Part shown: positions 1 to 51,600 of the stretch, one piece after another
How the letters are laid out: every line of letters starts with the position of its first letter
Position numbering within the stretch: the stretch's first letter is position 1
Assembly (NCBI GenBank): GCA_963681505.1
Contig: OY811980.1
Coordinates: 4,199,504-4,263,503 of the forward strand
Length of the DNA: 64,000 nucleotides
Direction of reading: 5' to 3'
Source: Eunapius fragilis
Taxonomy: Eukaryota; Porifera; Demospongiae; Spongillida; Spongillidae
Made by a program: the position numbers and the translations under genes
The notes under the pieces: model-generated
Database searches by the model: none
Told to the model about the DNA's origin: nothing
Seen by the model: only the letters and a program-made list of their open reading frames with translations

Positions 1-3000
1 CTTGAAGGCACCAATGTCCCTACCAATGATGGACCTGCAAGGAAAGAGAAATAAGCCACTGCCCAAATAAGAACACTACAATTATGCTTGAATGTGCAAA
101 AGTGAAATACTTCAAATGCAAACAATCACCTGAACAACGATATCATGACACCACCAATAGTTTCAAATACGACATACAAATGATAATTTACTAATTTTAC
201 AGAAAATGTAGTACGTACACGTACATTCTGAAAAACACAAGTGCATATATATACACATGAGCATTGATACAGCTGTGACAATGTTAACAGCACTGGTACC
301 ATAGTGTGCGCAACAACACTGGTACTATAGTGTGCACAACAGCACTGGTACCATAGTGTGTGCAACAGCACTGGTACCATAGCGTGCACAACAGCACTGG
401 TACCATAGCGTGCACAACAGCACTGGAACCATAGTGTGCGCAACAGCACTGGTACCATAGTGTGCACAACAGCACTGGAACCATAGTGTGCGCAACAGCA
501 CTGGTACCATAGCGTGCGCAACAGCACTGGTACCATAGTGTGCACAACAGCACTGGAACCATAGTGTGCACAACAGCACTGGTGCCATAGTGTGCACAAC
601 AGCACTGGTACCATAGCGTGCACAACAGCACTGGTGCCATAGTGTGCGCAACAGCACTGGTACCATAGCGTGCGCAACAGCACTGGTACCATAGTGTGCA
701 CAACAGCACTGGAACCATAGTGTGCACAACAGCACTGGAACCATAGTGTGCACAACAGCACTGGTGCCATAGTGTGCACAACAGCACTGGTACCATAGCG
801 TGCACAACAACACTGGTGCCATAGTGTGCACAACAGCACTGGTACCATAGTGTGCACAACAGCACTGGAACCATAGTGTGCACAACAGCACTGGTACCAT
901 AGTGTGCACAACAGCACTGGTACCATAGCGTGCACAACAGCACTGGTACCATAGTGTGCACAACAGCACTGGAACCATAGTACGCACAACTGCACTGGTA
1001 CCATAGTGTGCACAACAGCACTGGAACCATAGTACGCACAACAGCACTGGTACCATAGTGTGCACAACAGCACTGCAACCATAGTACGCACAACAGCACT
1101 GGTACCATAGCAGGGCTCGAAATAGCGGTCGACACACTGGCAATTATTATAATGTCTGGACAAAATTAATATTGATCTGTAATTAATGTCCGGACAAAAT
1201 GGCGGATGCTGTAAATGGCAGTGACAGTCTCCTACCAGCCAAGAAGCATGCAGTTTGTTAGAAAACGGTAGAGAACTGGATAAAAGAAAACTATCGATCG
1301 TTCAACACGACTATTGATAGTGATGAACATGTAAATACTCTTTCGTGTAAAGTTTGCAGGCAGTATACAGATAAACTGGTTGGTATACGTAACTACCATC
1401 CTGCGTTCGTGGCAGGGACAAGTAATGTCTGAGCCTCTTCTTTTAAAGACCATGCAGTGACAGACATGCACAAGCATGCAATGGCTTTTTTTTCGGAATA
1501 GCACAACAAACGTCACGGAGTCACCAATTGTAACATTTTTACTCCGTTCTTCGATGGATCCTACCACGCAAGATCAAATAAAACGTATAATTATATATGC
1601 GTGATCACTTACATGTATGCATATTCAATTTATACAACTTAATAAAATTTGTATGGGTACTGCAGGACAAATTTTACAATTGACAGGACAAACCTAGCAT
1701 TGTACTGGCAATTTGGCAGTACAAGTGAAAAAGTTATTTCGAGCCCTGCATAGTGTGCACAACAGCACTGGTACCATAGTGTGCACAACAGCACTGGCAC
1801 CATAGTGTGCACAACAGCACTGATACCATAGTGTGCACAACAGCACTGGAACCATAGTGTGCACAACAGCACTGGTACCATAGTGTGCACAACAGCACTG
1901 GAACCATAGCGTGTACAACAGCACTGGTACCATAGTGTGCACAACAGCACTGGAACCATAGCGTGCACAACAGCACTGGTACCATAGCGTGCACAACAGC
2001 ACTGGTACCATAGTGTGCACAACAGCACTGGAACCATAGTGTGCACAACAGCACTGGTACCATAGTACGCACAACAGCACTGGTACCATAGTGTGCACAA
2101 CAGCACTGGTACCATAGCGTGCACAACAGCACTGGTACCATAGTGTGCACAACAGCACTGGAACCATAGTGTGCACAACAGCACTGGTACCATAGTACGC
2201 ACAACAGCACTGGTACCATAGTGTGCACAACAGCACTGGAACCATAGTACGCACAACAGCACTGGTACCATAGTGTGCACAACAGCACTGGTACCATAGT
2301 ACGCACAACAGCACTGGTACCATAGTGTGCACAACAGCACTGGTACCATAGTACGCACAACAGCACTGGTACCATAGTGTGCACAACAGCACTGGAACCA
2401 TAGTACGCACAACAGCACTGGTACCATAGCAGGGCTCGAAATAGCGGTCGACACACTGGCAATTATTATAATGTCTGGACAAAATTAATATTGATCTGTA
2501 ATTAATGTCCGGACAAAATGGCGGATGCTGTAAATGGCAGTGACAGTCTCCTACCAGCCAAGAAGCATGCAGTTTGTTAGAAAACGGTAGAGAACTGGAT
2601 AAAAGAAAACTATCGATCGTTCAACACGACTATTGATAGTGATGAACATGTAAATACTCTTTCGTGTAAAGTTTGCAGGCAGTATACAGATAAACTGGTT
2701 GGTATACGTAACTACCATCCTGCGTTCGTGGCAGGGACAAGTAATGTCTGAGCCTCTTCTTTTAAAGACCATGCAGTGACAGACATGCACAAGCGTGCAA
2801 TGGCTTTTTTTCGGAATAGCACAACAAACGTCACGGAGTCACCAATTGTAACATTTTTACTCCGTTCTTCGATGGATCCTACCACGCAAGATCAAATAAA
2901 ACGTATAATTATATATGCGTGATCACTTACATGTATGCATATTCAATTTATACAACTTAATAAAATTTGTATGGGTACTGCAGGACAAATTTTACAATTG

Positions 3001-4723
3001 ACAGGACAAACCTAGCATTGTACTGGCAATTTGGCAGTACAAGTGAAAAAGTTATTTCGAGCCCTGCATAGTGTGCACAACAGCACTGGTACCATAGTGT
3101 GCACAACAGCACTGGCACCATAGTGTGCACAACAGCACTGATACCATAGTGTGCACAACAGCACTGGAACCATAGTGTGCACAACAGCACTGGTACCATA
3201 GTGTGCAAAACAGTACTGGAACCATAGTGTGCACAACAGCACTGGTACCATAGTGTGCACAACAGCACTGGTACCATAGTGTGCAGTACCGTAGCGTGAA
3301 CACAATAAACAATCATGGTCATAGCCCCACAGCCTGTACTCACGCCTCAACATTGGTCCCATTCTGGATCATCCAGACGTCTGCGTAGGTCCTCAAAACC
3401 AACATCAGTGCTATCAGCATAAGGTAGCCAGCCTAGTGTGGTACAGAGGGGGAGAGACAGGTTCATTGAAACCCTGGCTGGGAGATAACTACATGTGCAC
3501 ATAAATACATATGCATATGTTGTACATGTGAAAACATAGGATCATATGATTCCATCCACTTCACTGTACACAGACAAAAAAGACGTATTGGGATTGTACA
3601 GGTACATATGGCAACAGTGACTATACAACCGAGATAAAAAATTGCCTACATCGCAAGTCTCCTGTGTTTACTAGACTCCTTGCTACACGTGTAAGAACAC
3701 GTGAGATGCTCACACTGTGCAAAGTGATCAACAGAGCTCCTCCCACCATGATCTCCAGCTCATATCATGATCACTAGCTCCTCCCACTATCCCATATCCA
3801 CAAAACACATGTCACACATACATAAGAAAACACATCATGATCACAACACACAACACACACACAGATGGTGGTCACTTAAGGTGGCCTGACCACACACCCT
3901 TATGTACCTCAGGGGAGAACACACCAGGAACAATGATCTTCAATAATGGCCACACTCTCCTACAAGAAAAAGATGGTTCAACTGCCAGATATACGAGGGG
4001 GTCCCTCCATTCATAGGAGCATCTTGAAGATGAGCACATACCTGAAGAATGTTAAGTCCACAGCAGCTCTCTCCTTGGACCCTCCTGAGCCCTGCAGTGT
4101 AATGAACGGAACAGGTACACAAGGATCCAATGCAAGTGCGTTTTAATTAAAAACAAATTCATCCTCTTCCCAGTCTGAATGCCTGTACAATGCACGCATT
4201 GCAGCGCGCATGTAGCGACATAAGAGCCAATATATTCACCAACCTTCGATAAAACACGAGTGCGTTCTTGTGACCTGAAATCAAAAATGCACATGTTAGC
4301 TCCACGCCCACAGAGATGGCGTATGTAACATGATTGTACTGCGAAAGGCTTATACGGGAGGCTACATGTAATATGTACAACAACGGCATCGTTGTCTCAG
4401 ACGATGTTTCAGGCTAGTTTGAAGAACACTATCAGGGCCCGAGGGATCGAATCATGCAGTGTGGCAATGCTACGATGACCATATTCTAATATGAGCACAC
4501 CAACCATACCGGGATAACAAACAAGCAAATACCCAAATTACGTGCTACAAAAAGGGGTTGCAAATGCCTTATTACCCTTAAAATCTATCGAAGTATGCAC
4601 CTCTCAGTGCGCTCACCTCCCGCCTCCTGTCCGCGCGAAGTAGAACGCCAGAGATGCAGCAATGGCTGCCGCCGCCCCCACCGCTCGGGGATTGAGTAGG
4701 TATTTGGAAAGTGCTGGTGCCAT
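1..4723 (-). CDS. ABCD3: ABCD3 (PMP70) peroxisomal ABC half-transporter, 5' part
   Basis: Six exons on the minus strand give the first 121 residues: 4617-4723 (start codon), 4244-4274, 4042-4091, 3908-3959, 3344-3432 and 1-34, which runs to the window edge. All junctions are GT/AG and the phases agree (2, 0, 2, 0, 2). The start MAPALSKYLL matches the ABCD3 N-terminus (M..FSKYL), followed by a small-residue hydrophobic stretch, KERAAVDLTFF (family KERAVVDKVFF), LLKIIVP, then the first membrane segment GYLMLIALMLVL and RTYADVWMIQNGT, a near-exact ABCD3 signature, then SIIGRDIGAFK. ABCD3 forms a dimeric pump in the peroxisome membrane that imports branched-chain and dicarboxylic acyl-CoAs and bile-acid intermediates. 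The ATPase domain lies outside the window. The junction after exon 2 uses a weak donor (GTTGGT), so that short exon is the least certain. The intron 35-3343 is filled by repeats. Confidence 0.9.
286..1110. repeat. 26-bp minisatellite, array 1
   Basis: About 32 tandem copies of a 26-bp unit with ACTGGTACC, CATAGTGTGCAC and AACAGC segments lie in ABCD3 intron 35-3343. Units differ mainly at GGTACC/GGAACC/GGTGCC and GTGTGCAC/GCGTGCAC/GTACGCAC, giving readable variant strings. Since 26 is not a multiple of 3 and the unit lacks minus-strand stops, all three minus frames stay open for hundreds of codons. The resulting cysteine-rich translations are artefacts. Confidence 0.95.
1111..1748 (+). mobile_element. 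Non-autonomous hAT-like transposon, copy 1
   Basis: A 638-bp element with inverted ends CAGGGCTCGAAATA and TATTTCGAGCCCTG sits inside the minisatellite. Flanks read CATAG on both sides, a 5-bp target duplication cut from the satellite unit; classical hATs make 8 bp, some Repbase hAT groups make 5. Inside, a plus-strand start at 1199 (MADAVNGSD) leads into a zinc-finger-like stretch (CKVCRQYTDKLVG, then SFKDHAVTDMHKHAM) typical of the N-terminus of ZNF862/TTF-type hAT transposases, with internal stops. The rest of the transposase is missing, so this is a deletion derivative dependent on another source of transposase. Confidence 0.8.
1749..2429. repeat. 26-bp minisatellite, array 2
   Basis: About 26 copies of the same 26-bp unit separate the two hAT-like copies. 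The order of unit variants at its start (GGTACC, GGCACC, GATACC, GGAACC) is repeated at the start of array 3, showing that arrays and transposon were copied as a block. Confidence 0.95.
2430..3066 (+). mobile_element. Non-autonomous hAT-like transposon, copy 2
   Basis: A 637-bp near-identical copy of the element at 1111-1748. By eye I see one A/G difference and one T-tract length change. It has the same ends, the same CATAG flanks and the same internal stops. The 1319-bp spacing and shared satellite flanks show a segmental tandem duplication rather than a second transposition. Confidence 0.85.
3067..3306. repeat. 26-bp minisatellite, array 3 (remnant)
   Basis: About nine units, the last one degenerate (GTACCGTAGCGTGAACA). 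It starts with the same variant order as array 2 and then breaks off 38 bp before ABCD3 exon 3344-3432. Confidence 0.9.
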
Positions 4724-13700: not shown

Positions 13701-15635
13701 AGCCTGAACCAGTAACTCACTGATGCACTCACATTGTAAATTATACCATGTTGGTGCTTTGAACCAAAACCACCTAAACCCTCTTTGAGGTATACAGTTT
13801 ACATTTGTACTTGAAAGCAACCTCTGGGCTTTTCCTCCAATAGCCACCAAATCATGGTCAGCATATGCAGGCCAATCCCCAGTGGTAGGTAGCGCTTATA
13901 ATAGGTCCCTGTGGGTTGGCAGCAATCACCCACCAGCAGTAGCCACCTGCCAACTCAGGGGGCAAAAAATGTTTTGCCTACGTGCATGCAGTGCCTGGGA
14001 GTTTATATAGACATCCCAGGGAGCATTTCAGAAGGGAAAGCAATACAGGGTAGTGCAAAACAGTATCTTGTGTTCAGAAAACATGCAGACCCTATAACAA
14101 GTGGCCATTTTTGTTTTATTCTACGTCAATACAAACAAGGGTAAGGAAATGGTATTGTTAACAAGTTTCACATGTCAACAATTGTAAACAATTCTATATA
14201 ATGTAAGCGCTTACATTTAGACATTGCATGAAATAACATTAGTATAACAACACCAGTTGCATGCTTTAACAACTAAAACACCATTCTATTCGATTATATC
14301 TCGTGCCCATCAAGGATGAGATGACATAATCATGGAAGATCCCTCCATACGGTAAGGGAGGTACTAAAATGGCACTACAGTACACAGCATCATCTTATCC
14401 ATCACAAAGCACTGACAACCATCGCAGGCTTGTACATGTAATACATGTGCTTGCATGCCGTTCTGAAGTAGCTGGAACAATAATGCCTTGGTCCTGCCCA
14501 CACACAGCACAGGAGACTTGTACATTTTAACACGCATTGCAGAAATGGAGTGCCTTGCATTCCATTCATACATTTATACAACCAGAGCACAGTAATTTGT
14601 ACAATTTATGAAATACCTGGTTGGCTACAAACACATTCAATTGCAGCATCCATTTTCTCCACTGTGCAGGGTCGATTCTAACCCTCTTCCCTTCACGGAT
14701 AGATGGTGGTTGAAGTGGGTAGCTCTCAGGCAGGGAAATCCACAGTTCTATGCAACACTCGTCCACTCTGTAAGTGACAGAGACCTCGGAGGCTCCAGCA
14801 CAAACCCGTGTCTGCAAACATGTACACACGATACTACACATCTCCATAGCATCATGTGAGCTCTGGCTAACCTCCATGTTGCCATCTACACTATTATACT
14901 TCCTTTGAAGTTCAGTCTGCTGCAGAGCAGGACTAACAATTCTAGATGTAAACCTAATGAACAAAAGCAACAAGAGAAAGTATGTAAAGCACCACGGTAG
15001 CACTACTAAACACTTTGATAACTATTGTTCAAACACAATTGTATGACCATTTTAAATGCAGCATAGCACTGCAACGTACATGTACATACGACAAGTTTTT
15101 TGTTTGGACACTAAACACTGAAGACAAAGGTAAAATATGCATGTACACAAAAAATCCAAGTGAAGCAAACAAAGGAAGCAACATAAAACATTGATCCCAT
15201 CAATGCACATTAAAAATAGGTGTGCTAATGAAATATTCGCTAGTGCCACATACTGGATTCACATACATTTACAGTGCAGATCAAATTCACAATTATTTAC
15301 CTGGAAACCATCGCACTTGTCTGCCTGTCAAGAGAATTGTGCCATTGCCTCAACATGAATGGAAGTTGCTTGGCGACTGCAACATACACACAGCAGGCAA
15401 GAGTCTCCATTGAAGGACTGAGAGACACTAGCTCAAACAGGAAATAGCGCATTAAAGAAAAATAGCAATGGGTGAACAGACTTAAACACACGTACATGTG
15501 TTACAATACAATACCTTCAATCATTTCATCCTTCATTGACACTGCTGTAGAATCACTCAGAAAGCTGAAGAGACCATGCATAAGATGGTCGAAAAGAGTC
15601 AGATCCTTCAGCCACTCACTAACAACTGCTCTTGC
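10720..15635 (-). CDS. LTN1: LTN1 3' exons: RWD-like region and RING finger
   Basis: Exon 14617-14953 carries the RWD-like region ([38 protein letters not shown]), which contacts the 60S subunit. Exon 11083-11250 carries [12 protein letters not shown] and the first RING cysteines ([24 protein letters not shown]). Exon 10720-10779 ends the protein: [19 protein letters not shown] then TGA. Together they give C-x2-C, C-x2-C, H-x2-C and C-x2-C zinc ligand pairs, all present. Exons 15301-15427 and 15515-15635 supply the preceding helical segment ([14 protein letters not shown] matches LPAMVRLWWNSSEKR in human). No disruption is seen. Confidence 0.95.
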
Positions 15636-24600: not shown

Positions 24601-27600
24601 AATCACATCTTTTTGTACTTCCTTTCCCCCCGCTCATTAATTACCACATGTATGTAAGTGATGTGCGTATGCATGGATACAAGTACGTGTACTTTTCATA
24701 AATTTATCACAACATTTGCGTTATGCACAGCCAAGAGAACGAAGTACATGTACATCCTTTATTCCTTTATGTAATGTTTCCTTTATCTTATTTTACTTAA
24801 TTTTATTTTTTAATTATTTTATATTATTTTTTAATTTTATTGTTTCTGCTACAATATTATTTTACACCAGTGTAGGAGCGATATGCCTCCCCCCCCCCCC
24901 CCCCCCCCCCCCCCAGTGCCAAAACGCAGTGATTTGGACCCCCTCATGGACCTTATTTCGCTCGAGGTCTGGCGGCCCCGGAAAGCCCCCTTCTTAAAGT
25001 AAAGTATAGTGCATACAAATGTATCATTTCGCCTTTACTTACCCTTGTCACTGATTGTTATGCATGTGTACCACCTGCATACACGAGGTATTCTCTATAG
25101 ATAGCTGTTATGAGCGTTACAGGTGAGACTGTAAAGTGTGATGCATCTTCTTCAGAATACTCGTGCAGCGCATACCTCACAAATGCACTCTATCTGTCGG
25201 ACGTGAGCAAAGAATACAAACGGGGACTTCGAAAGCAATCTGCGGTTTTTAAGTGATGAAGTTGACATTTGTACTAGGTTGGTGGCAAAACTAAACAACG
25301 TAACCCTATTGTTCTCTACAACCACGTGCTTTTGCGACAAAAATGATGAAATTACTCACTTTCACCTTCTCGTTTGATTAAAACAACTAGCTAAACGATC
25401 CAATCGTCAGGAGTCTCGTTATAAACAGGTCTGGGGTCAAATTCTATTAGGAAGTTTCCAGCGAAACTTCCGATAAAAAGCTTGCTCAGATTAGCGACAG
25501 ATACTATTGGCCTGAGCTCTACAATCAAGTGTACTCCTACATAGTTAAAATCATGGTTATGCTTTAGTTGATTCAGATCAGTTCGTGCGAGCCTTGTAAA
25601 AGGATGAATCCAAAGTTATAGAAGGGTCATGCACCATTGCATCCAATCCCTGTAAAGGATGAAGTGTGGCATCAGATAGGAATAGATCTCATAGGTCCAC
25701 TACCTGTCACACCTAGAGGTTGTAAGTACATCATGACTGTGACTGACTATTATTCCAAGTGGACTGAAGCTGCACCACTTCAGAATAAAAGTGCACCTAG
25801 TGTTGCTAATATAATTCTTGTACTTGGTGAGCCTTTGGATTTATGCCATTACCTGCATGCCTCTGCGTACATTTATACATGTGCAGCCCTGAATTAACAG
25901 ATATCTATATCATTAGCAGTCGATATGTTGGTTTGGTTGTCCAGCTATCATTATAATTGATCAGGGCAGAGAGTTTGTGAATAAACTGTCAGATGAACGT
26001 TTCAAGAAAAACAAAAACACCAAACACCTCACCTTATCACCCTCGGGTAAGTTTACAATAACCATCATAGGTAGTTTGTATATTTACATGCATATTATAC
26101 TGAACCTTCAGGACCAATGGGCTAACTGAGCGATTTGTCAAGATGTCTGGCTAAATCAATGAGAGACATTTGTGAATGGGATGTGAAAATTGACACTGTT
26201 TTATCTGCATATCATGTCTCGAAACATCATTGTCAACCTCGTTTGCCCCTTGATGTTGAGTTCCTTCCAAACCACAATCTAGAAGATGATAATGTAGAAG
26301 AGTTTTTAAGCACAATGTTGAAGATAAAGGATGAAATCAAAAACAAAGCTAGTGTTAATATAACTAAAGCTCAGAGAGCAAGCAAAAGGAGTATTTTGAC
26401 AGACGACATTTTGTTGAAATATGTTGCATGCCAGCTATTTTATATTGGCAGTGATGACATCATACCATTTTAGCAACTTAAAGAAGGAACTAAAGTGCTT
26501 CTGGAAAACACTCAACTGAAGGGAGGGAAACTTACAGAAAGGTTCAAAGGGCCATATGTCAGAAGGTGTTGCTTGGGTAAAGGTGCATATGAGCTTGAAA
26601 CCAAAGATGGAAAGGTGTTGAAAACTAAGCACAACATGATTCATTTGAAGGTTTAATAAGCGTTGCGAAAATTGTGTTGTATTGATTGGGCACAGTGGTT
26701 TAAGATGCAGACATTGGGTTAGGGCATGACTTTGATGTTTTTTTTAAATTTACATAATTTAACTCAAATAGCCCAAAGTATCTGATTTCACTAAAATAAA
26801 TTGAAATTCAGTTTGACTCAAAATGTTGACGCTAAAAACAGATGAAAAATTAGAGTTCCGACATCAATATCTTTATACTAAACTACATATTTAATGGAAC
26901 AAATGGGAGGAAGAATAAATATGTAGCTAGATAGCGTTTTCACCTGCCTTTCGAAAGATACCAAATTTATTATAGTTTATGTCTTTGGAATATATCTTTT
27001 TGCAATGAAAGACGGGCAAAACGAGGAAACGTTAGATTGTACCGCCTAACTTCCCTCGGCGAGTACAATAAGACAGACAAAATAGATGCATGATGTTATC
27101 AGTTGGCATCCCCAAAACATGTGCCGACAACGCCCCGCTTTCTATATGGGACCATCATAAAGACTTCAACAACATCAATACCGTTTATGTTTTTGCCAAT
27201 AATTCCTAATAACGCTCGCGCGCGTAAAGATAATTTGTGTTCCACGTTTGCTGGCCATGACAGAAAAGCACAAAATAACGAACTTAGAAGCTCACAACAG
27301 GTATGTTAAGAAGTTTAAGAGCAACACTGAAGCATTAAGACAGTTTTTGGTTGATGAAGGGCTTAAAAAAGGTAAGAAACTCGAAAAGAAGTGGGCGTTC
27401 CGTTTTCTGCCGCTGCGATCCAAATGGATCAAGATGAGTAAAGGAAAATCCAAAAGGAGTGAAGCTACAATAAGGGCACTTCAGAATTTCCAGGAAGAAG
27501 TGTTTTATGAAGCAATGGATAGTTCCAGTGCAGAGGCTTGTGCATTAGTTGACACAAGCATGTCAGGTGAAGGGTCCAGTGAGAGAGATAGCTTGGATGT

Positions 27601-30600
27601 TCCACAAGATGAGAAAGAAAGTGTGCTATCTCCATTAGATGTAGTTAGTCCACGTCAAAGAAACAGGAGGATGCAGGTATTGATGTCTTTAATTCAGGAA
27701 AAACAATATTACTCCATCTCAGTTATTAGGATACCTCTTACACAAAGAGAACTATGTGAAAGATAGGCCTCTAGCTGCTGTTGGCATGCAGTTATTCTAC
27801 AAGGAATCTGCTGACAAAGAAATCAGCTTGGATGATGGTCTCTACATGCTGTCACAATATAAACTTGGTCGTACCAGCTACACAAGTCGGTTGAGTTACC
27901 TGCTCATTACAAACTCATGCAACACAAAAATGCTATTATGCCATGTATTACACCATTATCTGATGTACCAGGTGTCTGTATAAGCCTTCAGGAATCAGTA
28001 ATGATACATTTTGAGAGACTGATCAAGCTACTTCAATTGCAACCAGGAACATACTTGATGAAGGCAAAAGAAGGCCTTGATAGATCTGGAAGGCATAGTG
28101 TGTACAACCAGCAAGGCCTAGGAAGTATTGAGTGGCATAACATGATCATTTGGATGTGGATTCCCCTAGAACTGGTTATAGATCCATCAGACGTAGCTAC
28201 AGGGAATCAACCTAGTACTAGTACATGTAGCTCAGGTAGAAACAGTGTCTGTCTATGGAAGGAAGGCGCCCCAAGCAGTCCAGAGGCTGGGAGGCCAATC
28301 CTTTTAGCAGTTGGAAAAGAAGACAAGGATTTGCTTAATAAGCTGGTTCCACTGTGACAGTTAATGTTACAGTAGCCATTGCGGGTGAAGAATACAGCTT
28401 GAAAGTGAAGTTTATCTGAAGCATGAATGATGGTAAAATGCAGAAGTTATTGCTGGGTAGAGGTGGTGCTTTCTGTGTGTTGTGTCCATACTCTGACGAG
28501 GATTAGTCTCGTCCCCAGACCCTACACTTCACGTGTTAGGGTCTGGGATTTCGAGTCGCTAGCGCTTGTACCATCTGGAATGTAAACAAACAATTATCAC
28601 TTGACCACATCCGATAATTATTAAAGCTATGGCGACGGTATGGACCCCGTATCAGTGTAGGTGTTGTGGAGACGTTGTGTGGAGCCACAGAAACCGCAGA
28701 GTACTGACTCGCGATGCTGCCCACACCAATTGTTTGCTCCAACTAACTGGCAAAGAGTGGGCATATTTAGCTCCTGAGATTCGTGGAAGTAAAGGGTTGG
28801 ACAAAAGCTATATATGTCGTTTGTGCTACTTTGCCTTAGATAAAGTAGTTGCCCTTCACGAAGGTGGTCGTAAACGTACGGTAACAGAACATAACATAGA
28901 GTTTTACCGTATCCTGTTGGCAAAATAACCAAACAATCATGGCCATTTGCAAAGCTACATATAGCCTCCTTCTGCTTGTCCTTCAATGTCTCCCCTTCTG
29001 TCATCACGAAACGCATAGCTTGTTCGACCATATCCATACTTACACGTAGTGTGTGGGTCTGGGTCGAGCAATGTTTATGTACATACGTCATAATTAAAGT
29101 GCGCACGAATTCCAGCGTTTGGTACACTTCCGCCCCATTATGTAATTATGCGATAAACATTGCATCATATTGGTCCTATTACAGCTTTCAGTGTGAATAA
29201 ATTTCCAATTCTGCATGCATTGTTACGTGGTCTGAATTATTGCCTGAAGTTGGTATACAAGTTAAGTGCTGGGGTGGATGAATGGAAGGAAAACAGCCAG
29301 ACTAAGGCAAAGGTAAGGGTGGCGAAGAAATTCATTCAGGAGACAATCAAGGCCAAAACTGGGCTTACAGTTGATAAACTAGCCCCAGTAGGGGTTGGAG
29401 GAACTACGACAACAGGAAACATGGCCAGACAATTATTATCTGATTCAGTGAAACGAAAGTTTTTGGTTGACTGTGTTCTTGTGAAGATCCGGGCAGATGA
29501 AAAATGTGATCAGAAGATGTTTGACGAATTTATCACGAATTATTCTGTTATATTACGTGCAATCTCTTCCAGAAGAAACATTAATGCAGATTGTTTGAAC
29601 AGCTATGCAAGGAAACATCTCTAACTCTAGTGAGTCATTGGCCAACTTTCAAGTTCACACCAGCTGTACACCAAGTGTTGGCACATTCTGCTGCACTCAT
29701 AACAGCGAATGAGTCAATAGGACTAGGTTCTTTGTCTGAGGAACCATTGGAGCACAACAATAAGAACATTCACACAGAGAACATCTCTCCCGTAAAACGA
29801 CTCAACATGCCAACATCTCTGATGTCCTAACCAGGTTGTGGGTTAAGTCGGATCCTATAATTAGGAGTGCTAGAAATAAAACAAAATGCTCATTTTGTAG
29901 CAATGAGCATAATGTGCGTTCGTGTCCTCAAAAGCAAGTACGAGAAAGTCTTTGCCTTTCTTTTGAGGAAAACCTCATTTCTTGCATCTTTGCTGAAGAA
30001 GAAATCCCAACTGCACTTGGTGAACAAACATAGTAGCTAGAGCTTATTGCGTATCATGTGATAGCTTATACACCTATTTTCCTTGAAGTGTTAATTGATC
30101 TAATTTATCAGTTTGTGTTAAAATATAAGGCTTGTATTGAAAGACTATAAAATGTTAAGAAAAAAGGAATAAATTTTGAGAAAAATGATACTTCTTAAAG
30201 TTTGAATTCAGTGGTTTGATTATATCTATTAATATTAATGTACAATAATTATTTTAATGAACATTCTCACTACCATAATAGCAATATTGATCCTAACTTA
30301 GAACTACACAATTCAAAAATGTCTGCATCACCCCTGGTATTAAACCACTGTGTTGGGTTCTATAGTTATTTATAGAAAACAGTCAATGTTCAAATCAAGG
30401 TGGTAAACCTTTGGATCTGCAATCCGGTGAGTCAGATACTGATGAAATGCTTCAAAATGCAGCCTGCTAAATAAAACCACATACACAATAAGATGGATGC
30501 TCAAATGATGATCAAGAGGATGGAACAACAACATTGGATTTGCTATCTGGTGAGTGTACAAATAGTTATAAAGAGTTTTAATTGAAATAATGCAAATTAG

Positions 30601-39600: not shown

Positions 39601-42600
39601 TTGAGTTCATTTGCAGTGATCATGTTTGCACTCCACCCTTTGGTGTAAAAACCTGCCTAGACAGGTCTTTAATTATCGCTGTGTTAAGTATTGTTGTAAT
39701 CGTTTTGTGTGGCAATAATATTTTTATAGGTTGTTTATTCTTGCAGGCTTTACAACTTATCCCTACACTCGCGATCTGATGCTGCTGCAATCGTTCACCT
39801 CGTTACTGCCGCCCCACAACCAGCTGTTCGAAGGTGGTTGCACCCTGTTGAATCTGACCGCATGGGAAGCTGCCTTATGCGGGCATCCAGACAAAGACAC
39901 AACCGAATACATTTGCTCGGGCTTAAGGTTTGGGCTTTGTTCGGGGTTGCCCCCTCAAAAGTGCAACTGTCAAAATGCTCTCCTTGTTCAAGCATCCCGG
40001 CATCATTCAGGAGTACATCACAAAGCAGCTGGAACTGGGCAGGATGTGGGATCATTCCTGGGACATGTCACCATTGTTTTCTTCCCATGCAGATGGTAGA
40101 CATTGCCTTCCATCGGAAGTACTTCACTGAAGGTTGTGTGGGCAAAGACTTCCTGAAGTTTTTTGGTTAGGCTGCCTGTAAGTTCAAGCTTGTAAAGGAC
40201 GAAAAGTGGCTGCATGATCGAGATACCCGTGGAACACTGAATCTGTGGAACTTTTTCGTAAATTTCTGTAAATCTAATACTAGCTGTCTCCAATCCTCAA
40301 TGCTTTATAAATTAATCACATGCACATGTATGTAGTTTGCCAATAGCAACATCCTTGCATAAGGTACCTTACAACAAGATGACACCAGAAGAGCTCAATG
40401 CAGAGTGTCAAGTTATTTTTCAAACAAAGCTGGTTGTCTCAAAAGACGAGGCATCATATTTGGAACAGGTAACCAGACTTCAGTCACAGTCAATATTATG
40501 GTATCAGCACTGTACAGGTCGTGTAACTGCTTCCAAAATATTTGCAGTGGCACGAACATCTATTGAAAATCCGTCACGATCCCTGATCAAAGAAATAATG
40601 GAAACGAAGGTCCATGCACATACTGAAGTGTTGTCGCTGAAGTGGGGAATAGAGAACGAACAAAACGCACGAGAACAGTATTTTGGGCAAATTAAAGATG
40701 ATCACACAGAACTCTTCTGCACTTTGAGCGGACTTTGTGTGAATCCCAAATATCCTCACCTTGGAGCCACACCAGACAGGATTGTAAAATGTGACTGTTG
40801 TGGGTACAAGCACAAAGAAAGTCACCCACATAGTGTTGTGGACAACAAATTTTGCCTTGAACCTGTTGATGGCCTAGTACGCCTGAAGAAAACCCATGAG
40901 TGCTATTATCAGATACAAGGGCAATTGGCTATTTGTGAAATGGAATATTGTGACTTTGTCTGTTGGACTCCTCATGGAATACAAATTGAACGTATCCTTC
41001 CCGATACACTCTTTGAAACTGTCAAGCCAGCTCTTGATACATTCTTTGTAAGGGTGCTGTTACCTTTGCTCATGACTGGTAAAACACAGCAGGAACAGGG
41101 CACTGCTCACTTGTCTGTAAAAGAAGACACCTACTGCTGGTGCAATGGCAAAGACGAAGGTGCAATGGTAGCTTGTGACAATGAAAATTGCACACGCCAG
41201 TGGTTTCATTTCGAATGTGTGGGTCTGAAGAGCAAACCACGCGGAAAATGGTACTGTTGTGCTGAATGCAGACACGCTGAGACATAACTTTGCTTTTTTA
41301 TGTAATTAAAATGAAATAGATTCAATCACACTTGGACACAAATTTACTAATGCAGCACATACAGTCATAATTTTGTCAATTAGTGATGTTTCTTTTCCAT
41401 CATTACATTTAAGTGTAGAAACTGGCAGTGTCGACTGAAGAATAGTATACTTATTCTTAATCATAGATTGATCAGGTGCTTACTTAAGTAAGAATTTGCT
41501 TACTTAAGTAAGCAAACTTTAGCCCTAGACTCCCAAAATCCACGGATCGCCTGTGATGTTTATTAGGCAATTTTAGTACTAGAGAGGGGTTGAAGTTTCA
41601 TCGCCTCTTGTATCTGGCTCAAACAGAGCTTGTTAACATACGCTATAGTATGGGGGGAAAAGTTGAGCGCTCTTACGATATAACGTAGATAGGTACTGCA
41701 AAATGCGTTTATTTTACGCGGAACACTGATAAACTTACTACGAGCGGGTAAACAACAACTGCCAATACGTATTGAAGCCAACAAAACGTTTTTTGACCTA
41801 GGCTATACTCTCGGGTATACTAGATAGTCGGGCATTAATTAAATAACAAATTTCAATCAATAACTGCATTGAATTCCATTTATCATGGCGCTGGGGATTA
41901 AGATCGGATGTACCATACACGCCTTAGCAAACAAGGTCATGGGAAGTAAGTGGTCAAAACAACGTTACGGATTGGCTTGGAAGACCAAAGAGCTGCGTGG
42001 CACAGTCACTTCAATGATTGGAACAGGTCGCAGCCGAAAGTGGAATTGTTATTTTGAAGAGCTGTCTATTTCACGTGCATTGTCAGCGCGCTCACTCATA
42101 ATCAGTGGCCAGGATACCTTACCTCCTCAGCAACTAACACCAGCAAGTGTTAATGAGCAAGGTGATAATGATGCTGAATTGGATGAAGAAGGTGTAGATG
42201 AGATAGTAGATGGCGAAAATGAAGACATAACAGCAATCGGTGTAAATGATGAAAATGGTGATGCTGATGAGATGCAGCAAGAGGAAAGTGCTGTGCAAGA
42301 AAATCAGGAATCGAGCAAGAATGATCCACTCAACTGCAATGGTGTTCTGTGGAGTGTGGTTTCCAATGTATCTGAGGACACACGTGTGCAGCCATGCTAC
42401 AGAGCCATGATACTGTGGGATACCAACACTCAGGAGGAAAAGCGCACAGTCCAGGACTATTTCAAACTTTGATTTCCTATGCAAATGATGGATAGCATTG
42501 TAGCATGGACATCACAAGCCACACCTCCAGGGAAGAAGGGTATAAACAGTGGTAGCATATTAAAGTTGTTTGGCTACCTCCTTGCATTAACCAGAACTAC

Positions 42601-45600
42601 TGCTCGCAGAAGGAACCTGTTCAGTGAATGTGACGGGCTGTTTCCAGCTCCTCGTTATGGAGCTAGATTTGGGCTCTCCCAGCATCGTACTGATATGCTT
42701 TTGCGATCTCTCAGGTTTTGTCCATTAACAGATGTAGACAAAAACGACAAGTGGAGCCCAGTGCGCAGACTGATAGATGGATTCAATCTGCGTCGTGTGG
42801 AGTTGTTCTATCCATCATGGCAGATATGTGTTGATGAATTGATGAGTGCTTGGAGGGGTAAAGATGGTAACTTTTGCAGTGATGGGTTGCCACATGTCAG
42901 CAAGATAGAAAGAAAGCCTAAAGGTGTAGGTGCTGAATTGAAGGATGCAGCTGATACAGAAACAAAGGTTATCATTCAACTGGAAATTCAAGAGGGCAAG
43001 GAGGAAATGGAGAAGGAATATATGGATGTGTACAAGAAAGCTGGGACTGCACAAGTTCTACGACTAACCAAGCCTTGGCATGGAACTGGTAGAGCAGTAT
43101 ATGCTGATTCTGCCTTTGCCAGTGTGACCACTGCATTTGCCTGTCGTCAGAAAGGCCTCCATTGTACAGGTTTGGTTAAGACTGCCACAACCAAATTTCC
43201 TAAGAAGTTTCTGGATTCCTGGGAATACAAAGAGTTAGGAGACTCTGTTACTCTTGTGGCACAACATGATGGCTATCCTTTGATTGCTCATGGATGGGGG
43301 GACAAGGTAAGAAAGAACTTCATCTCCACCAGATCAGACACGCTAGATGGCCGGCCTTCAAGCAAACGAAGGTGGCGTGAAATGTTGGATGCAGATGGCA
43401 ATGAAGAGGGGCACACAGAGGCATACATGAAACATGTGAAGCGATCCACGTTGGTAGAGGAGTATTTTGATTCTGCCTCAGTAATAGACATCAACAACCA
43501 TGTGAGGCAAGGTGGTCTATCACTTGAGACGGCTTGGAAGACACATAATTGGACCAGCAGAGTAATATCCACCATACTGGGCATAGTGGAAACAGATGCT
43601 TACCTGATGTGGAAACACTTCCATCCTGATGGTAAGAACTGGGACCATGCATCATTCACTGAAGAACTTGTTATGCAACTTCTTTCAATCCCAGAAGAGG
43701 AAACAAGCCCTAATGTGTCTCTAGATTCAACAAATGAAGACATACTCAAAGAGCATGATGTGCGTCCATTGAGCGAGTTACAACAGTACAAAGGACAGAC
43801 TAGTTCTGGAAAAGCAAGAGTACCTCTCAGACGATGTACAGTGTGTGGTGGAAACTGCAAGTACTATTGCAAGGGCTGTTCAAATCCTGACAAGAACATA
43901 ATAATACCACTCTGCGGTCTGAAAAGCAAAAATGGATCTGGTTGTATGATGAAACACATAATGTTGTGACTTGTAAAATAACGGAACTGCTTGTACGATT
44001 CATGATTGTGTTGTGACGATGTTTTTTATATGTACGTGCGCGTATTTAGAAACAGTGCATTGCAACGTACAAGTGTAGGTCTGGGTACGAGATGCATGGC
44101 TGCGTAATTTTGTTTGTGTAAGCACTATTTGGCTAGTTTTAGCGGTCTCTGAAGATCGAGACGTGAAAAAGCAATATATTAGGTTCTTCAGTTGATACAG
44201 TATACGACAATATGAAGACTACGTATGTAGAGTGTGTGGTAGGCCTCGTACCGCATTAAAAAAAAAAATTAAACGCGTTTTTGCGCACTTAGTTGTTTAC
44301 TTACATGGCAAGGCCATAACTAGAAGACTGAAGGCAAAATCAACTTACAGTGGTGGTGCAATATGAGTGGTGATACTGTGGTTTAAATTTCAAGCTCTGG
44401 AAATACTTTTTAAGCATCAAACCATCGATTTTTGCTTGCTTACTTAAGTAAGCATCACGCGTAACTTAAGTAAGTTCGTACTGATCAATCTATGATTAAG
44501 TAGTCCTATAACTCTTTCGATGTGAATCCTGACTTTTGAAAGTCGTTGAGAATACTCCAGTGAAAGTTGTTTTTTCCCTCGAGTGAAGGAGGGGATTTCC
44601 AGCTTTGCCCCATGTATTGCAACATCGTCATGTATGTCAAAACCCGTCGGCCAGTACAACGTCACCATGTTCAAGTAAGCGTAGGAAACCACTGTTCATG
44701 ATGATGAACTTATCTGCAGCTCTGCCACCCCAACACTTTGACAAAAAAGATATGGCACCACAAGGTGTTATCCCAACTAAAAATTTCACTGCATTGTGCT
44801 TCTTATAATTGGAATAAGTTTGTGCCCGTGCTTGATACGCGTATGGTCGCTCTGTAAATATTTCAGAACAATCAATGATACATCTTGCCTTAGGATACAA
44901 GTCTTTGAAAATCTGAGGCATGTTTGACTTGCATATTTCTTGATCAGGCCACTTTATTAGAAATTTTAAACTACAGTACATTGCATCTATCCATGCAAGA
45001 AATATATCTGATACTGTGGACTCACTGATGCCAAAGTGGTAAGCAAGGTATTGTACCAAGAGACCAAGACTTCGTCTCATTAAGATCAGCAATAAGCGGT
45101 CCGCATCACATAAGCGCACATTTGTTGTTGTGTGTGACTTAACGGCCAGTGTAGGAGAGCATGACAAAAGGTATGCTAATACTTGTTCAAAAACAGAACA
45201 GGTGGGTAGTCCTGTGTAAAACTTCACCGCTTCATCATTGGAAGCTATTTCACTGTACCTGAACGTTAAAGGGCTTGTCTGCGTTTCTGAAGATGTTGTG
45301 CTCGTTGGTGTTTGCGTTTCTGTACACTGGACTTCAAGGGCTGCAGTCTGTGTACCTGCTTCACACATGAACTGCGAGTCTCCGAGAAGTTAAAGACCTT
45401 CCACTGCATCGTGATGTCTTTCCATTTCACGCTCCCTGTCCTCTATTATTTCTCTCCTAGACTTAACTCTCACCTCTCGCTCACGTTGCGTTTCTGAGCT
45501 TTCTTGCGTCTTCTTAAACGAAAATACAGCAGGAACGTAGTCTACATCGCTGCTGTCGTTGACCGGTTTTCCTGCATGTTAAAAGATACAGTAAAATTCA

Positions 45601-48600
45601 CACGCACAAACTGAGAGCATATAGCCGTACACACCTGATACAAAACGGTCACCACAAATTTGTAAGTGTACCGTAAGTATCCAGTTTTGTCTTTTCAGAG
45701 CTTTTATCCACTTCAGTCTTCTGGCACGATCCGTTATTGGAAAACGATAAAAACCAAGGCCAGTATGTTCCCCGTGGCGATTTTGCAACCAAACGCACAA
45801 CAACTAACAACCATGTTTTAGCCACAAAAAATAAAGTTGCCAACCAATTTATATTTCATCGATTCTGGTCACGTGCTTGCGTTCCCACCGGACCTATGTA
45901 TTACCGTAAACTACCAGAATTAAGCCCACCCCCCCTCCGCCCCCAATGCGAGAGAGTTAAAAAAATGGTATATTTTTAAATGATCACAACTCCGGATCCT
46001 TCAGCAGGTCTATCTAGCTTTTTCAAACTCAGCTTTATATATCATTTTGCCTACGAAATATGTAACTAGTTTATCCTAGTCTCACGTACCTTTGAATTAA
46101 AATAGTCCGAAATTTGATGGGATTTAAGAGAGCCGTAGCTTTTCAACCGCACACATCGAGACGTTCCAGGTACCATATATGATAAGCGAAACCATTTCTC
46201 AAGACTAGTATGCTGTTACTTTGCATTTACCTGTTTCACAGTCGTTACTTTTTTTCCGTCGAAAGTATAGGGGTTGGAATCGCACCGCCATTTTTTAAAC
46301 TTAAGCACGTTCCAACCCGGAATGGGAATGTAAAGATTGTTCGACTTGAGTAAATGGTAAACAGGCGGAAGTGGTTTATGTGGTAATCAGCACGAATATG
46401 AATACAGATATGTGACATACAGTGCAGTGCCTGCAATACCGCATGCGGTGTGATTGGCTTGACTAGACAACAATTGAAGCCGATTATCTCTCGTGGTATG
46501 CTATAAAGGACAAAAAAAAGCGCAAAACGTAGCGCTTTTTATTGTATTGGCTTAGGCAACAATTGAAGCCAGCTACCTCTCAAAAACAGCGCAAAGCATT
46601 GCTTATTGTAGTGGGTAGGCTGGTATAAATAAACTGCATACAAGTAATGATGCATAGGCTCTATGTTTAAATGTTTTAATGAGTTCGCGTCGAAAATCGT
46701 ACACTGTCGATTTCAAGCTCAAGGTTCTTGACAGGTACCATAAAAACGGTGAGAGTGGCCATGTGACGTCAAAGCATTTTGAGATAGACCGAAGGATGAT
46801 AAGGAATTGGTTGGCAAAAGAAGATTGCATGAAAAAAACAAGATGCAGGAAAGAGAAGAAGCATCTGTATCCTGCAAGTAAAGGACCGCATGCTGCAGTT
46901 GATGCAGCTGTTTTAGCGTATCTAACAGATGAGCGCAGTGCAGGAAGACCTGTCAGCAACAAACAACTACGAGCTAAAGCTATGGAAGAAGCACCCAAGC
47001 TCAATGTCCCAGCATCCTTTAAAGCCTCAGACATGTGGTTGAAAAGATGGAAAAAGAGAAACCATGTGAGCATGCGAATGGCAACGAATGACTCTCAAAA
47101 GGTTCCAGAAGACTACTGGGATGTGCTCCATACGTTTCGATCCGACGTGCTAAAGTTGGTTGTTGCACATGGATATACGCCAGCTAGAATCGTCAACATG
47201 GACCAGACAATGTGCAGATTTGATATGCCGCCTAACAGGACGAACCATGCTACAGGGAGTAGGTCCATTTGCATTGCTAACACCAAAGCAGCGAAGAAAG
47301 GATTCACCGTGGCCTTAGCTGCATATGGATGTGGTGTAAAACTGCCAGCCCTTATAATCTTTACGGAGAAAGGAGGTAAGTTGGGCCCACATGTTAGCAA
47401 ATCCCTTACAATTCCACCCAACGTTCGAGTGATGGCTACCGCAAACGGATGGATGACTACTAGTCTTTACCATTGGTGGTTACATCACATCTACGGTTGC
47501 GACAAAGACAACAGGCGACTGTTACTGGTCGATAACTACCGGCCCCACTTAACTGATGACAGCCAGGAGATCGTAACTGCTGAGTGCAACAGTGACTTGC
47601 TATTTATACCAGCAGGATGCACACCCCTTGTCCAGCCGATGGACGTATCTGTGAATCGCCCTTTTAAGCAGGCAATGAGAGACAACTGGCTTAAATGGAT
47701 GTCTAGCAATAATGAGCGTACCGCACATGGTAACCTCAAGCAGCCAACACGCCAACACGTGATTAACTGGATATTGGCAGCGTGGGACAACATTAAGGCT
47801 GAAAGCATCATTGAAACTTTCATGCGCTGTGGCATAATGGCTGCAGCTGATGGTAGCGATGACGAGAAAATGTTCAGCCATATACCACGCGTCATCGTCG
47901 AAGAGGATCTGCAGGAGGATGAGGATACGATAGAGAATGACGATGATGTTGATGAAGATACTGCAGAATACGACAACGACGATGACGGGATGGTTACAGG
48001 TGATGATTTTGATCCATTTGACTCTGATGAAGACTAATCTGTACACTATTTTTTAATAACTAGGTTATTTATTGAACGCCTTCAATGCAATGTGCAATGT
48101 TTGTTTCTGTATTCATATTCATGCTGCATTACCACATAAACTACTTTCGCCTGTTTACCGTTTACTCGAGTCAAACAATCTTTACATTCCCATTCCGGGT
48201 TGGAACGTGCTTAAGTTTAAAAAATGGCGGTGCGATTCCAACCCCTATACTTTCGACGGAAAAAAATAACGACTGTGAAACAGGTAAATGCAAAGTAACA
48301 GCATACTAGTCTTGAGAAATGGTTTCGCTTATCATATATGGTACCTGGAACGTCTCGAGGTGTGCGGTTGAATAGCTACGGCTCTCTTAAATCCCATCAA
48401 ATTTCGGACTATTTTAATTCAAAGGTACGTGAGACTAGGATAAACTAGTTACATATTTCGTAGGGAAAATGATATATAAAGCTGAGTTTGAAAAAGCTAG
48501 ATAGACCTGCTGAAGGATCCGGAGTTGTGATCGTTTAAAAAAGATACCATTTTTTTAACTCTCTCGCGTTGGGGGCGGAGGCTTAATTCTGGTAGTTTAC

Positions 48601-51600
48601 GGTACATGGACTGGAAACCACCGCGTAACGTACGTAATACTATAAAATTGTTTGCAATCCTCGTTGCGCCTCGTTCCCAACCTTTTCGGACTAACAAAAG
48701 CTTTTGTGAAGTTGTCTTAGCTTTGGAGTGCGCATGTTCTGTTGTCAGGCCTCTGCAAATATGGTAATAGTTATGGCCTTATTTAATGTTTCACAGTATA
48801 CCAGGATGGTTTCTCTAACTCCAGATTATATTTACATGTACATATGTGATGATTGAACCTGTATTTATTTCTATAATACTTTGCTGAACCATTTCCAACG
48901 CACTTGCTAACGTCCCATTGGGCCCCTCCGATGAGGATGCAACATCAGTCAAGGACTCTTCATCATTTTCCTGTGTATCGCTCTCATCGCTCGCATCATC
49001 TGATTCATCTACATCAGAACTCGTGTTTCATTCAGCCATACAACACCAGTTCATTAATAATTCATGCACAATGAGGATGGCGACACGAATTTATTGTGGT
49101 TTCCAGTCCATGTAATAATTAAGTGTCCTTACGACCTGCGGGCTGGCCCATCGAATCCGGACACGGGAAGTCTCGACACTATCCGTAGATCATCGTGTTG
49201 AGTTGGGCCCACAAAAGCGTAGGAACGTAAACAAGATTGGGGGGGCCAAAAGGGTGTGTGTCCAATATAAATTCTGCGTACTTTATATACATATTGCCCA
49301 AGATTGGGGGGGCCAAGGCCCCCTCTGCCCCCCCAGTTCCTACGCCTATGCAGTGTTCCCAAATATGCTCAGCGAAGGACATCTCTGTAACTACAATGAT
49401 GGGAAGTGTCACTATGACTGGTGCAGGCACCAACATATCTGCTTTGGTCCACATTCATGGCTTTCATGCTCAAGGAACACCCGTCGAAAGGATCAGAGTG
49501 GTTGCAACCGTTCCAGGCCACCATGTCCATAACTCATATGTGTAACACTAGTGCATGCATGGACATCATATTATTTGAGTTCGTTTGCATTGATCATGTT
49601 TGCACTCCACCCTTTGGTGTAAAAACCTGCCTAGACAGGTCTTTAACGATCGCTGTGTTAAGTATTGTTGTAATCGTTTTGTGTGGCAATAATATTTTTA
49701 TAGGTTGTTTATTCTTGCAGGCTTTACAACTTATCCCTACACTCGCGATCTGATGCTGCTGCAATCGTTCACCTCGTTACTACCGCCCCACAACCAGCTG
49801 TTCGAAGGTGGTTGCACCCTGTTGAATCTGACCGCATGGGAAGCTGCCTTATGCGGGTACCCAGACAAAGACACAACCGAATACATTTGCTCAGGCTTAA
49901 TGTTTGGGCTTTGTTCGAGGTTGCCCCCTCAAAAGTGCAACTGTCAAAATGCTCTCCTTGTTCGAGCATCTCGGCATCATTCAGGAGTACATCACAAAGC
50001 AGCTGGAACTGGGCAGGATGTGGGACCATTCCTGGGACATGTCACCATTGTTTTCTTCCCATGCAGATGGTAGACATTGTCTTCCATCGGAAGAACTTCA
50101 CTGAAGGTTGTGTGGGCAAAGACTTCCTGAAGTTTTTTGGTTTGGCTGCCTGTAAGTTCAAGCTTGTAAAGGACGAAAAGTGGCTGTGTGATCGAGATAC
50201 CCGAGGAAGACTGAATCTGTGGAACTTTAACACTAGCTGTCTCCAATCCTCAATGCTTTATAAATTAATCACATGCACATGTATGTAGTTTGCCAATTGC
50301 TGTTGTGCACACCTAAGTGGTGATTTGATATTAGTCTACGCATTCAGAATGGGTTAAACATTCTCGCATTTAAAAAACGACTATATAAGTGGGGTAGCTG
50401 TATTTGTGACAGTGAAACATTCCTATAATACCTGGACTGGAGTCCCGCTCAGCGGAAGTCCACGTCAATTATTGCCAGAGACAACGAACTTACGACGAGC
50501 TATTGGATTTGAGTGCCAGGTTGTGCATGTACCCCTCCTTAATCCATATATTTTTCCATTACCTTTAAAGTTAGCTGCATGCGTGTGGTTATTGCGTAAA
50601 TTTGATAATTTAGTAATGGCAAGCATTGAATTTCATACAAACGTACATGTATGTGCATGGAAAGAAACGAAGACCACTTTAGCTTGTCTACACACTGCCC
50701 ATACGTACATGCAGTCATTTAAGCAGCTTATTGGGACCCCTGGACTCAGCTAGTCACTCCACTGTCCACTAAACAGGTTTGGTGTTGTCCCTAAAGACAA
50801 CAACACAGGGAAATGGCGTCCGATAACAGATTTGTCCTACCCCTGGGAAAAGTGGAAATGACGAAATAGACCCCGAGCTCTGTTCGTGGAGGACGCGGCT
50901 TCCGAGGCCGCTGAATTGGGCAAAGGGGCAGTTATGACGAAGGTTGATATTGAGGCGGCATATTGTCTGGTCCCGGTCCACCCACACTGTTGGGTAAGGA
51001 ATAGATAGGGGCAGGTTTTTTGCTGATCCAATGTAGCCTTTTGGTCTCTGGTCGGCGCCAAGATATCAATGTCATTCCAGACACAATGGAGACCTAAAAT
51101 CTCGCGGGGATCAATGCATCACATGTATGTGCGTCCAGTCGACCACACATCAATATCAAGGAGGCTACTGATTTAGCACAGGTGGTCTGAGTAGTACTCA
51201 GCGTTTACATCGAGCACAAGACAAATTTCAGAAGGCATCAGCTCCCCTCAATGGAGGAGTCTTACCACAAAGACACCTGATGGAAAATCTGAAAGACAAG
51301 TTCCATCAGTACCAGGAGAAGCTTCGGACACTTACATTATCACCATATACTGTACCATCGAAGAGACCCAACACTTCTTCAATACCACCAACTACATGGT
51401 GAATATAGTAGGGAGCTGAGGGAAATCTACATCTACCTATGAAATCAATGTTACCACCTTGGTTGTGAGTTCTACAACAGCTAGTCCCAGTTTTACAGTG
51501 ACAATGAATTAATCCAATGTAACAGCTAAAAATCATGCTCAAAGTTTACCAACCAATGTTTTCCTTTCCCCTAATTCAGCTCCACTCAATTACATTCACA

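Follow-up and report, generated by a model that had tools for sequence, protein, structure and literature searches.

An open question is whether the antibody-gene signals inherited their 12/23 spacing from a transposon. Transibs are known relatives of the enzyme that shuffles the vertebrate antibody genes, and the locus described here belongs with them. Within a 64,000-nucleotide stretch of Eunapius fragilis contig OY811980.1 (hereafter the window), positions 26691-30352 hold a 3,662-bp element with inverted ends and the pentamer TTGGG outside each. An earlier note on this DNA had described it as a RAG1-like/Transib transposon with V(D)J-type ends. What kind of element is it, and how close does it come to the V(D)J system? 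We conclude with near certainty that it is a dead element of the Transib superfamily. That it is, taken as a whole, a fossil Transib, most likely a degenerate relative of Subgroup I with functionally asymmetric ends, appears probable; this fuller reading is graded below the first because it includes the subgroup and the functional asymmetry, and Subgroup II also holds asymmetric elements.

The left copy of the target-site duplication TTGGG lies at 26686-26690 and its exact repeat at 30353-30357, and both ends open with the heptamer CACAGTG, as the earlier note had stated. The heptamer belongs to a perfect 13-bp terminal inverted repeat (TIR) block, CACAGTGGTTTAA, found at 26691-26703 on the plus strand and at 30340-30352 on the minus strand. 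A second inverted block, GATGCAGACATT, exact over 12 bp, had escaped that note. At the left end this block occupies 26704-26715 (plus strand), 0 bp after block 1, whereas at the right end it occupies 30318-30329 (minus strand), 10 bp from block 1; it therefore starts at position 14 of one end and position 24 of the other. The ends of this one copy are bipartite and asymmetric, with identical 13-bp and 12-bp blocks and spacers of 0 and 10 bp. The duplication has the 5 bp originally claimed for it, but G or C fills only three of the five positions in this copy, fewer than the description "GC-rich" would imply.

The ends and the duplication together exceed what chance would produce. Inverted 13-mer pairs whose starts lie 1-6 kb from each other number 432 in the window, tandem arrays supplying many of them; two are flanked by a 5-bp repeat, and the only one that also carries a second block is the Transib element (the other flanked pair, at 1111-3066, lacks one). 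A first-order Markov model of the window, simulated 100 times, gave mean counts of 8.23 inverted 13-mer pairs, 0.02 with a flank repeat and 0 with a second block as well; flanked pairs arose in 2 of the 100 simulations and the second block in none. By simple counting, a 12-mer common to both ends within 40 bp is expected about 5e-5 times. Taken singly, at up to two mismatches, the blocks match the window 7 times (block 1; 3.16 expected) and 10 times (block 2; 9.19 expected), but the two occur together nowhere in the window besides the two element ends. BLAST of the element against the rest of the window gave no other match.

The likeness of these ends to V(D)J signals is real in one part and missing in another. 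The heptamer is identical to the consensus of the recombination signal sequence (RSS) (PMC8289069), and, as in the 12RSS and 23RSS, a conserved second block follows at two spacings that differ by about one helical turn. The second block, however, is not an A-rich nonamer, and none was found where an RSS nonamer was sought, at spacers of 12 and 23 bp from the heptamer. If the pentamer ACATT shared by both ends is taken as reference, a point picked post hoc, the heptamer is followed by spacers of 13 bp (left) and 23 bp (right), close to the 12/23 rule. Agreement with ACAAAAACC at ACATT is no more than 3 of 9 on either side, and better matches occur at other offsets (up to 4 on the left and 5 on the right). 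The bipartite asymmetric ends are the strongest link of the element to V(D)J signals.

Between the ends lies a single transposase gene, in seven pieces on the plus strand. The core fragments listed in the earlier note, namely the first Asp region, FCVLC, a GNMAR block and the catalytic Glu, are all present and in order. The gene is more broken than that note described, with five frame changes (within 27682-27766, within 27863-27983, near 28350, within 29585-29624 and within 29764-29830), one in-frame stop (TGA at 28417-28419) and a stretch of nested DNA in the catalytic region (28498-29163, both outer boundaries approximate). The element is dead, a fossil. The N-terminal piece (27257-27682, from the first ATG of its open frame, at 27257) has no family match and, like the next piece in a different frame (27696-27881), was placed by position only. 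The third piece (27872-28354), placed by alignment to the Transib of Helicoverpa zea (HzTransib), begins the RNase H region and carries the first catalytic Asp (28079-28081). The fourth (28351-28504) holds the stop, the second Asp (28429-28431) and the two zinc Cys codons (28474-28476 and 28483-28485). Past the nested DNA, the fifth piece (29166-29621, placed by a PDB search alignment) spans the helices beyond the Cys pair and the GNMAR block, and the sixth (29624-29830) the zinc His codons (29669-29671 and 29684-29686) and the catalytic Glu (29750-29752). The last (29821-30033) holds the end of the C-terminal domain and a CCHC motif at 29887-29925 that resembles the CTT1/CTT* tail.

Comparison with HzTransib places the three catalytic acids and the four zinc residues (two Cys, two His) in register, on assignments of catalytic and zinc-binding residues that we take over from RAG1. 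The first Asp lies in GLDRSG opposite GFDGAS, the second in SMNDGK opposite TMIDGK and the catalytic Glu in SEEPLE opposite SEEASE. The Cys pair, FCVLC, stands opposite CYLC, and the His pair is common to all three aligned proteins. Structure predictions of two open pieces gave a mean pLDDT (predicted local distance difference test) of 34.8 and 48.8.

For homology searches the pieces before and after the nested DNA were joined into two read-through halves, with X at the breaks. Against the 177,635 distinct sequences of the PDB, the C-terminal half found first entry 6pqn (E 1.9e-13, 53.8 bits), which, together with five further entries, we take to be HzTransib, the records themselves saying putative DNA-mediated transposase. 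Second, at E 0.16 and 14.7 bits, came 6b40, presumably the RAG1L protein of ProtoRAG from amphioxus; the four other entries listed were noise. The open piece 29178-29624 alone returned HzTransib first (E 0.055). In pairwise alignment the C-terminal half shares 61 of 228 residues with HzTransib (z 31.8) and 51 of 221 with ProtoRAG (z 14.3), whereas HzTransib and ProtoRAG share 40 of 182 (z 12.8); this comparison favours the window protein, because its own alignments set the limits of both the HzTransib piece and the ProtoRAG piece. The N-terminal half aligned with HzTransib residues 44-228 at 52/213 identities (24%) and a score of 87 (shuffles 30.6 +/- 4.6; z 12.3; 0/2000 as high), and with a RAG1 piece (3jbw) at a score of 38 (28.7 +/- 4.4; z 2.1; 89/2000). 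The HzTransib sequence used there had been retrieved with a Transib-like bait. The third piece by itself gave z 8.8 against HzTransib (0/2000 shuffles). Because HzTransib is the closest relative of both halves, in bits and z for the C-terminal half and in z for the N-terminal one, the protein is by sequence comparison of Transib rather than RAG1L type and nearer to Transib than to RAG1. Membership of the RAG1/Transib superfamily stands, while the term "RAG1-like" was an overstatement.

The Pfam RAG1 family PF12940, a check proposed with the original claim, was not listed for either half at E up to 10, with HMMER filters that drop most matches above about 0.1; in controls a ProtoRAG piece scored 2.8e-38 and an HzTransib piece 1.8e-4, below the cut-off of the family. 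Pfam gave no match for the two read-through halves and nothing above cut-off for six transposase pieces scanned singly (best E 0.041). NCBIfam and PHROGs, with six pieces included and the fourth (28351-28504) left out, produced nothing beyond weak hits (best E 0.049 and 0.033), and a 50-residue piece around the second Asp had no PDB match.

Could a second gene accompany the transposase? Counting the TIRs, the first ATG is preceded by 566 bp and the last open stretch followed by 319 bp, so no RAG2L gene fits, and scans of element pieces listed neither a kelch nor a PHD family. HzTransib likewise consists of one gene and is not known to carry RAG2.

Altogether, a RAG1-core-like DDE transposase with a C2H2 zinc site, heptamer-like TIRs starting with CAC, a 5-bp target-site duplication and a single gene without RAG2L place the element in the Transib superfamily. 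HzTransib is homologous over both halves and shares the 5-bp duplication, as other Transibs do. It differs in that its ends are called symmetric (PMC8289069), against bipartite and unequal ends here, in that the CCHC tail falls outside its alignment, and in that the window copy is dead. The subgroups are those of Tao et al. (2022, PMC9435367): Subgroup I Transibs, nearer to RAG1L, without exception combine asymmetric ends with a CTT1 tail and are said to keep the alpha11-alpha12 region, while in Subgroup II asymmetric and symmetric ends both occur. With Subgroup I the window element has in common two-block asymmetric ends (in its one copy) and a RAG1-core-like transposase without RAG2L, and its zinc tail resembles CTT1; it differs in showing no visible alpha11-alpha12 region, in a tail one residue short and in its spacers of 0 and 10 bp. 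Similar arrangements occur elsewhere: for some insect Transibs, ends of the 12/23 type are reported, together with nonamer-like sequences that resemble RSSs (PMC8355894). These, Transib 5 of Drosophila melanogaster and Transibs 2, N1, N2 and N3 of Anopheles gambiae, resemble the window element, as described, in a heptamer plus second block at two spacings and in lacking RAG2; the second block there is nonamer-like, unlike the one in the window.

Assignment to Subgroup I is therefore the favoured reading, not a proved one, and several observations weigh against it or against the Transib reading as a whole. With a single copy, the 10-bp difference between the ends could be a private indel. Asymmetry alone is no mark of Subgroup I, because some members of Subgroup II (PMC9435367) and some insect Transibs (PMC8355894) are asymmetric too. 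The tail reads Cx2Cx3Hx4C, against Cx2Cx3GHx4C for the CTT1 motif (PMC7204232), one residue fewer and with the G absent. The second zinc Cys is separated from the LHALL helix by 21 residues (nested DNA excluded) versus 29 in HzTransib. A Subgroup I member should have an alpha11-alpha12 region at that place, and accordingly none is seen; it was deleted or never present, and the nested DNA, which sits there, could have replaced it. The N-terminal half found no relative in Pfam or in the PDB (one antibody chain, E 1.4), and the fourth piece, with the second Asp and the Cys pair, is weak alone against HzTransib (z 3.6, 11/2000 shuffles). The collections searched yielded no relative from bacteria, viruses, phages or plasmids; bacterial Transibs have been reported by Tao et al. 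(PMC9435367).

Some of these points would fit an ordinary Transib outside Subgroup I, in which a chance indel made the ends differ by 10 bp and the CCHC motif is incidental. We consider this possible: the one known copy is heavily mutated, the alpha11-alpha12 region is not seen, and the best solved relative, HzTransib, has ends termed symmetric (PMC8289069). Yet in an otherwise decayed copy the blocks still agree at all 13 and all 12 positions, an indel must have struck precisely between them, and the similarity of the ends stops sharply past block 2. The CCHC motif, moreover, sits where CTT1 would be, in the same open frame and ten residues past SDP. Quite improbable, in our estimate, is a RAGL transposon (RAG1L plus RAG2L) that has lost its RAG2L gene. 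ProtoRAG of amphioxus and the pelagophyte AanRAGL share with the element asymmetric bipartite ends starting with CAC, the 5-bp duplication and the CCHC tail; AanRAGL ends consist of 13-bp and 10-bp blocks with 4- and 13-bp spacers, and tail and asymmetry are common to RAG1L transposons (PMC9435367). The C-terminal half also scores 102 against ProtoRAG, and HzTransib 95, on pieces cut by the window's alignments. However, the element has no RAG2L gene, its similarity to RAGL proteins is lower, both halves are closer to HzTransib, and PF12940 was not listed for either. The open frame upstream of the core (27203-27766) has no listed zinc-finger family, the scan leaving out 26716-27202. A DDE transposon of some other kind, with only a chance likeness to Transib in its CAC-start ends and 5-bp duplication, would account for the lack of a profile match to the N-terminal half alone, but hardly merits belief given the HzTransib match at E 1.9e-13 with catalytic and zinc residues in register.

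How would a Subgroup I-like Transib of this form have worked? HzTransib and RAG make a nick 5' of CAC, leave the flanks as hairpins, and join the excised DNA to its target with a 5-bp stagger. By analogy, the single RAG1-core-like DDE transposase of the intact element would have paired the short end, with adjacent blocks, with the long end, where they stand 10 bp, or about one helical turn, apart. It would have nicked 5' of CAC, and hairpins on the flanks would have freed the element; insertion with 5-bp staggered joins would then have left the TTGGG duplication. Of this scheme the sequence itself shows the duplication and the active-site residues; the pairing and the hairpin chemistry, like the subgroup, we infer. 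An element with an RSS heptamer and two block spacings one helical turn apart, yet without RAG2, is a data point on the Transib side of the question raised at the outset. Its own weight is modest, because asymmetric Transibs have been published (PMC9435367; PMC8355894) and the copy is single and dead. It is conceivable, if rather unlikely, that an animal lineage outside the groups sampled so far, perhaps a sponge, keeps the ancestral short/long signal pair of the RAG/Transib lineage without RAG2, with spacers of 13 and 23 bp to ACATT, a short zinc-binding domain and a CTT1-like tail. In that case the transposase itself would account for the two-spacer rule, independently of RAG2 and of the RAG2-binding region.

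Relatives were sought in several collections. In viral contigs, three protein or alignment searches matched 3, 222 and 85 stretches without a relative being confirmed, and DNA-pattern searches gave no match; nor did the phage collection. The sole hit of one plasmid search was weak (E 0.2), fell under an IS110 transposase and was not counted as a relative; a second search returned nothing. A first search of genome contigs matched 17 stretches, none confirmed. Another matched nine, all judged chance from their translations, one of which runs across a stop; by eye we took three of them to be MiaB-like, three transketolase-like and two like a methyltransferase and a glycosyltransferase. In a limited literature search on Transibs no description of a sponge Transib turned up.

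The nested DNA is itself composite. Its first part, 28498-29069, includes in its first bases an end sequence, AGTCTCGTCCCCAGACC / AGTCTCGTNCCCAGACC, which recurs at 8277 (plus strand), 10085 (minus strand) and 44078 (minus strand, 2 mismatches), four matches in all with 0.12 expected. On the minus strand this insert carries the start of a RecQ/DEAD helicase (Pfam DEAD, 1.1e-6; RecQ family in the NCBIfam/PHROGs scan, 9.6e-8, far under the model cut-off), facing the start of a cysteine-containing open reading frame (ORF) on the plus strand. The insert has the appearance of a two-gene transposon reduced by deletion. Adjoining it, a 96-bp sequence (29068-29163) with exact 11-bp inverted ends, GCAATGTTTAT, resembles a miniature inverted-repeat transposable element.

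The window as a whole is depleted in CpG (0.53 of expectation), has no Rfam match and holds several other DNA transposase genes. A YqaJ nuclease ORF (40316-41287, plus strand, with a PHD-like match just under cut-off) and a DDE_Tnp_4 transposase with a helix-turn-helix (HTH) domain (44637-45389, minus strand) have between them a piggyBac-type ORF (42473-43969; DDE_Tnp_1_7, 4e-31); the outer pair is possibly what we would call an ISL2EU-like element, split by the piggyBac. An open 459-residue transposase of pogo/Tc5 type lies at 46658-48037 (DDE_1, 4.6e-26; HTH_Tnp_Tc5, 2.1e-10). A UBC_like fold fragment at 14566-15021 (minus strand, 6.5e-20) resembles what we take to be the end of Listerin and may offer a host gene anchor; together with the other transposase genes it fits an animal genome, though not decisively. 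Arrays of a 26-bp unit occupy 286-1110, 1749-2429 and 3067-3285, the first two open in three minus-strand frames, and a 42-bp unit is repeated at 61508-61906 with a 98% match. Finally, the stretches 39719-40170 and 49693-50288, about 10 kb apart, have ORFs with nearly identical translations.

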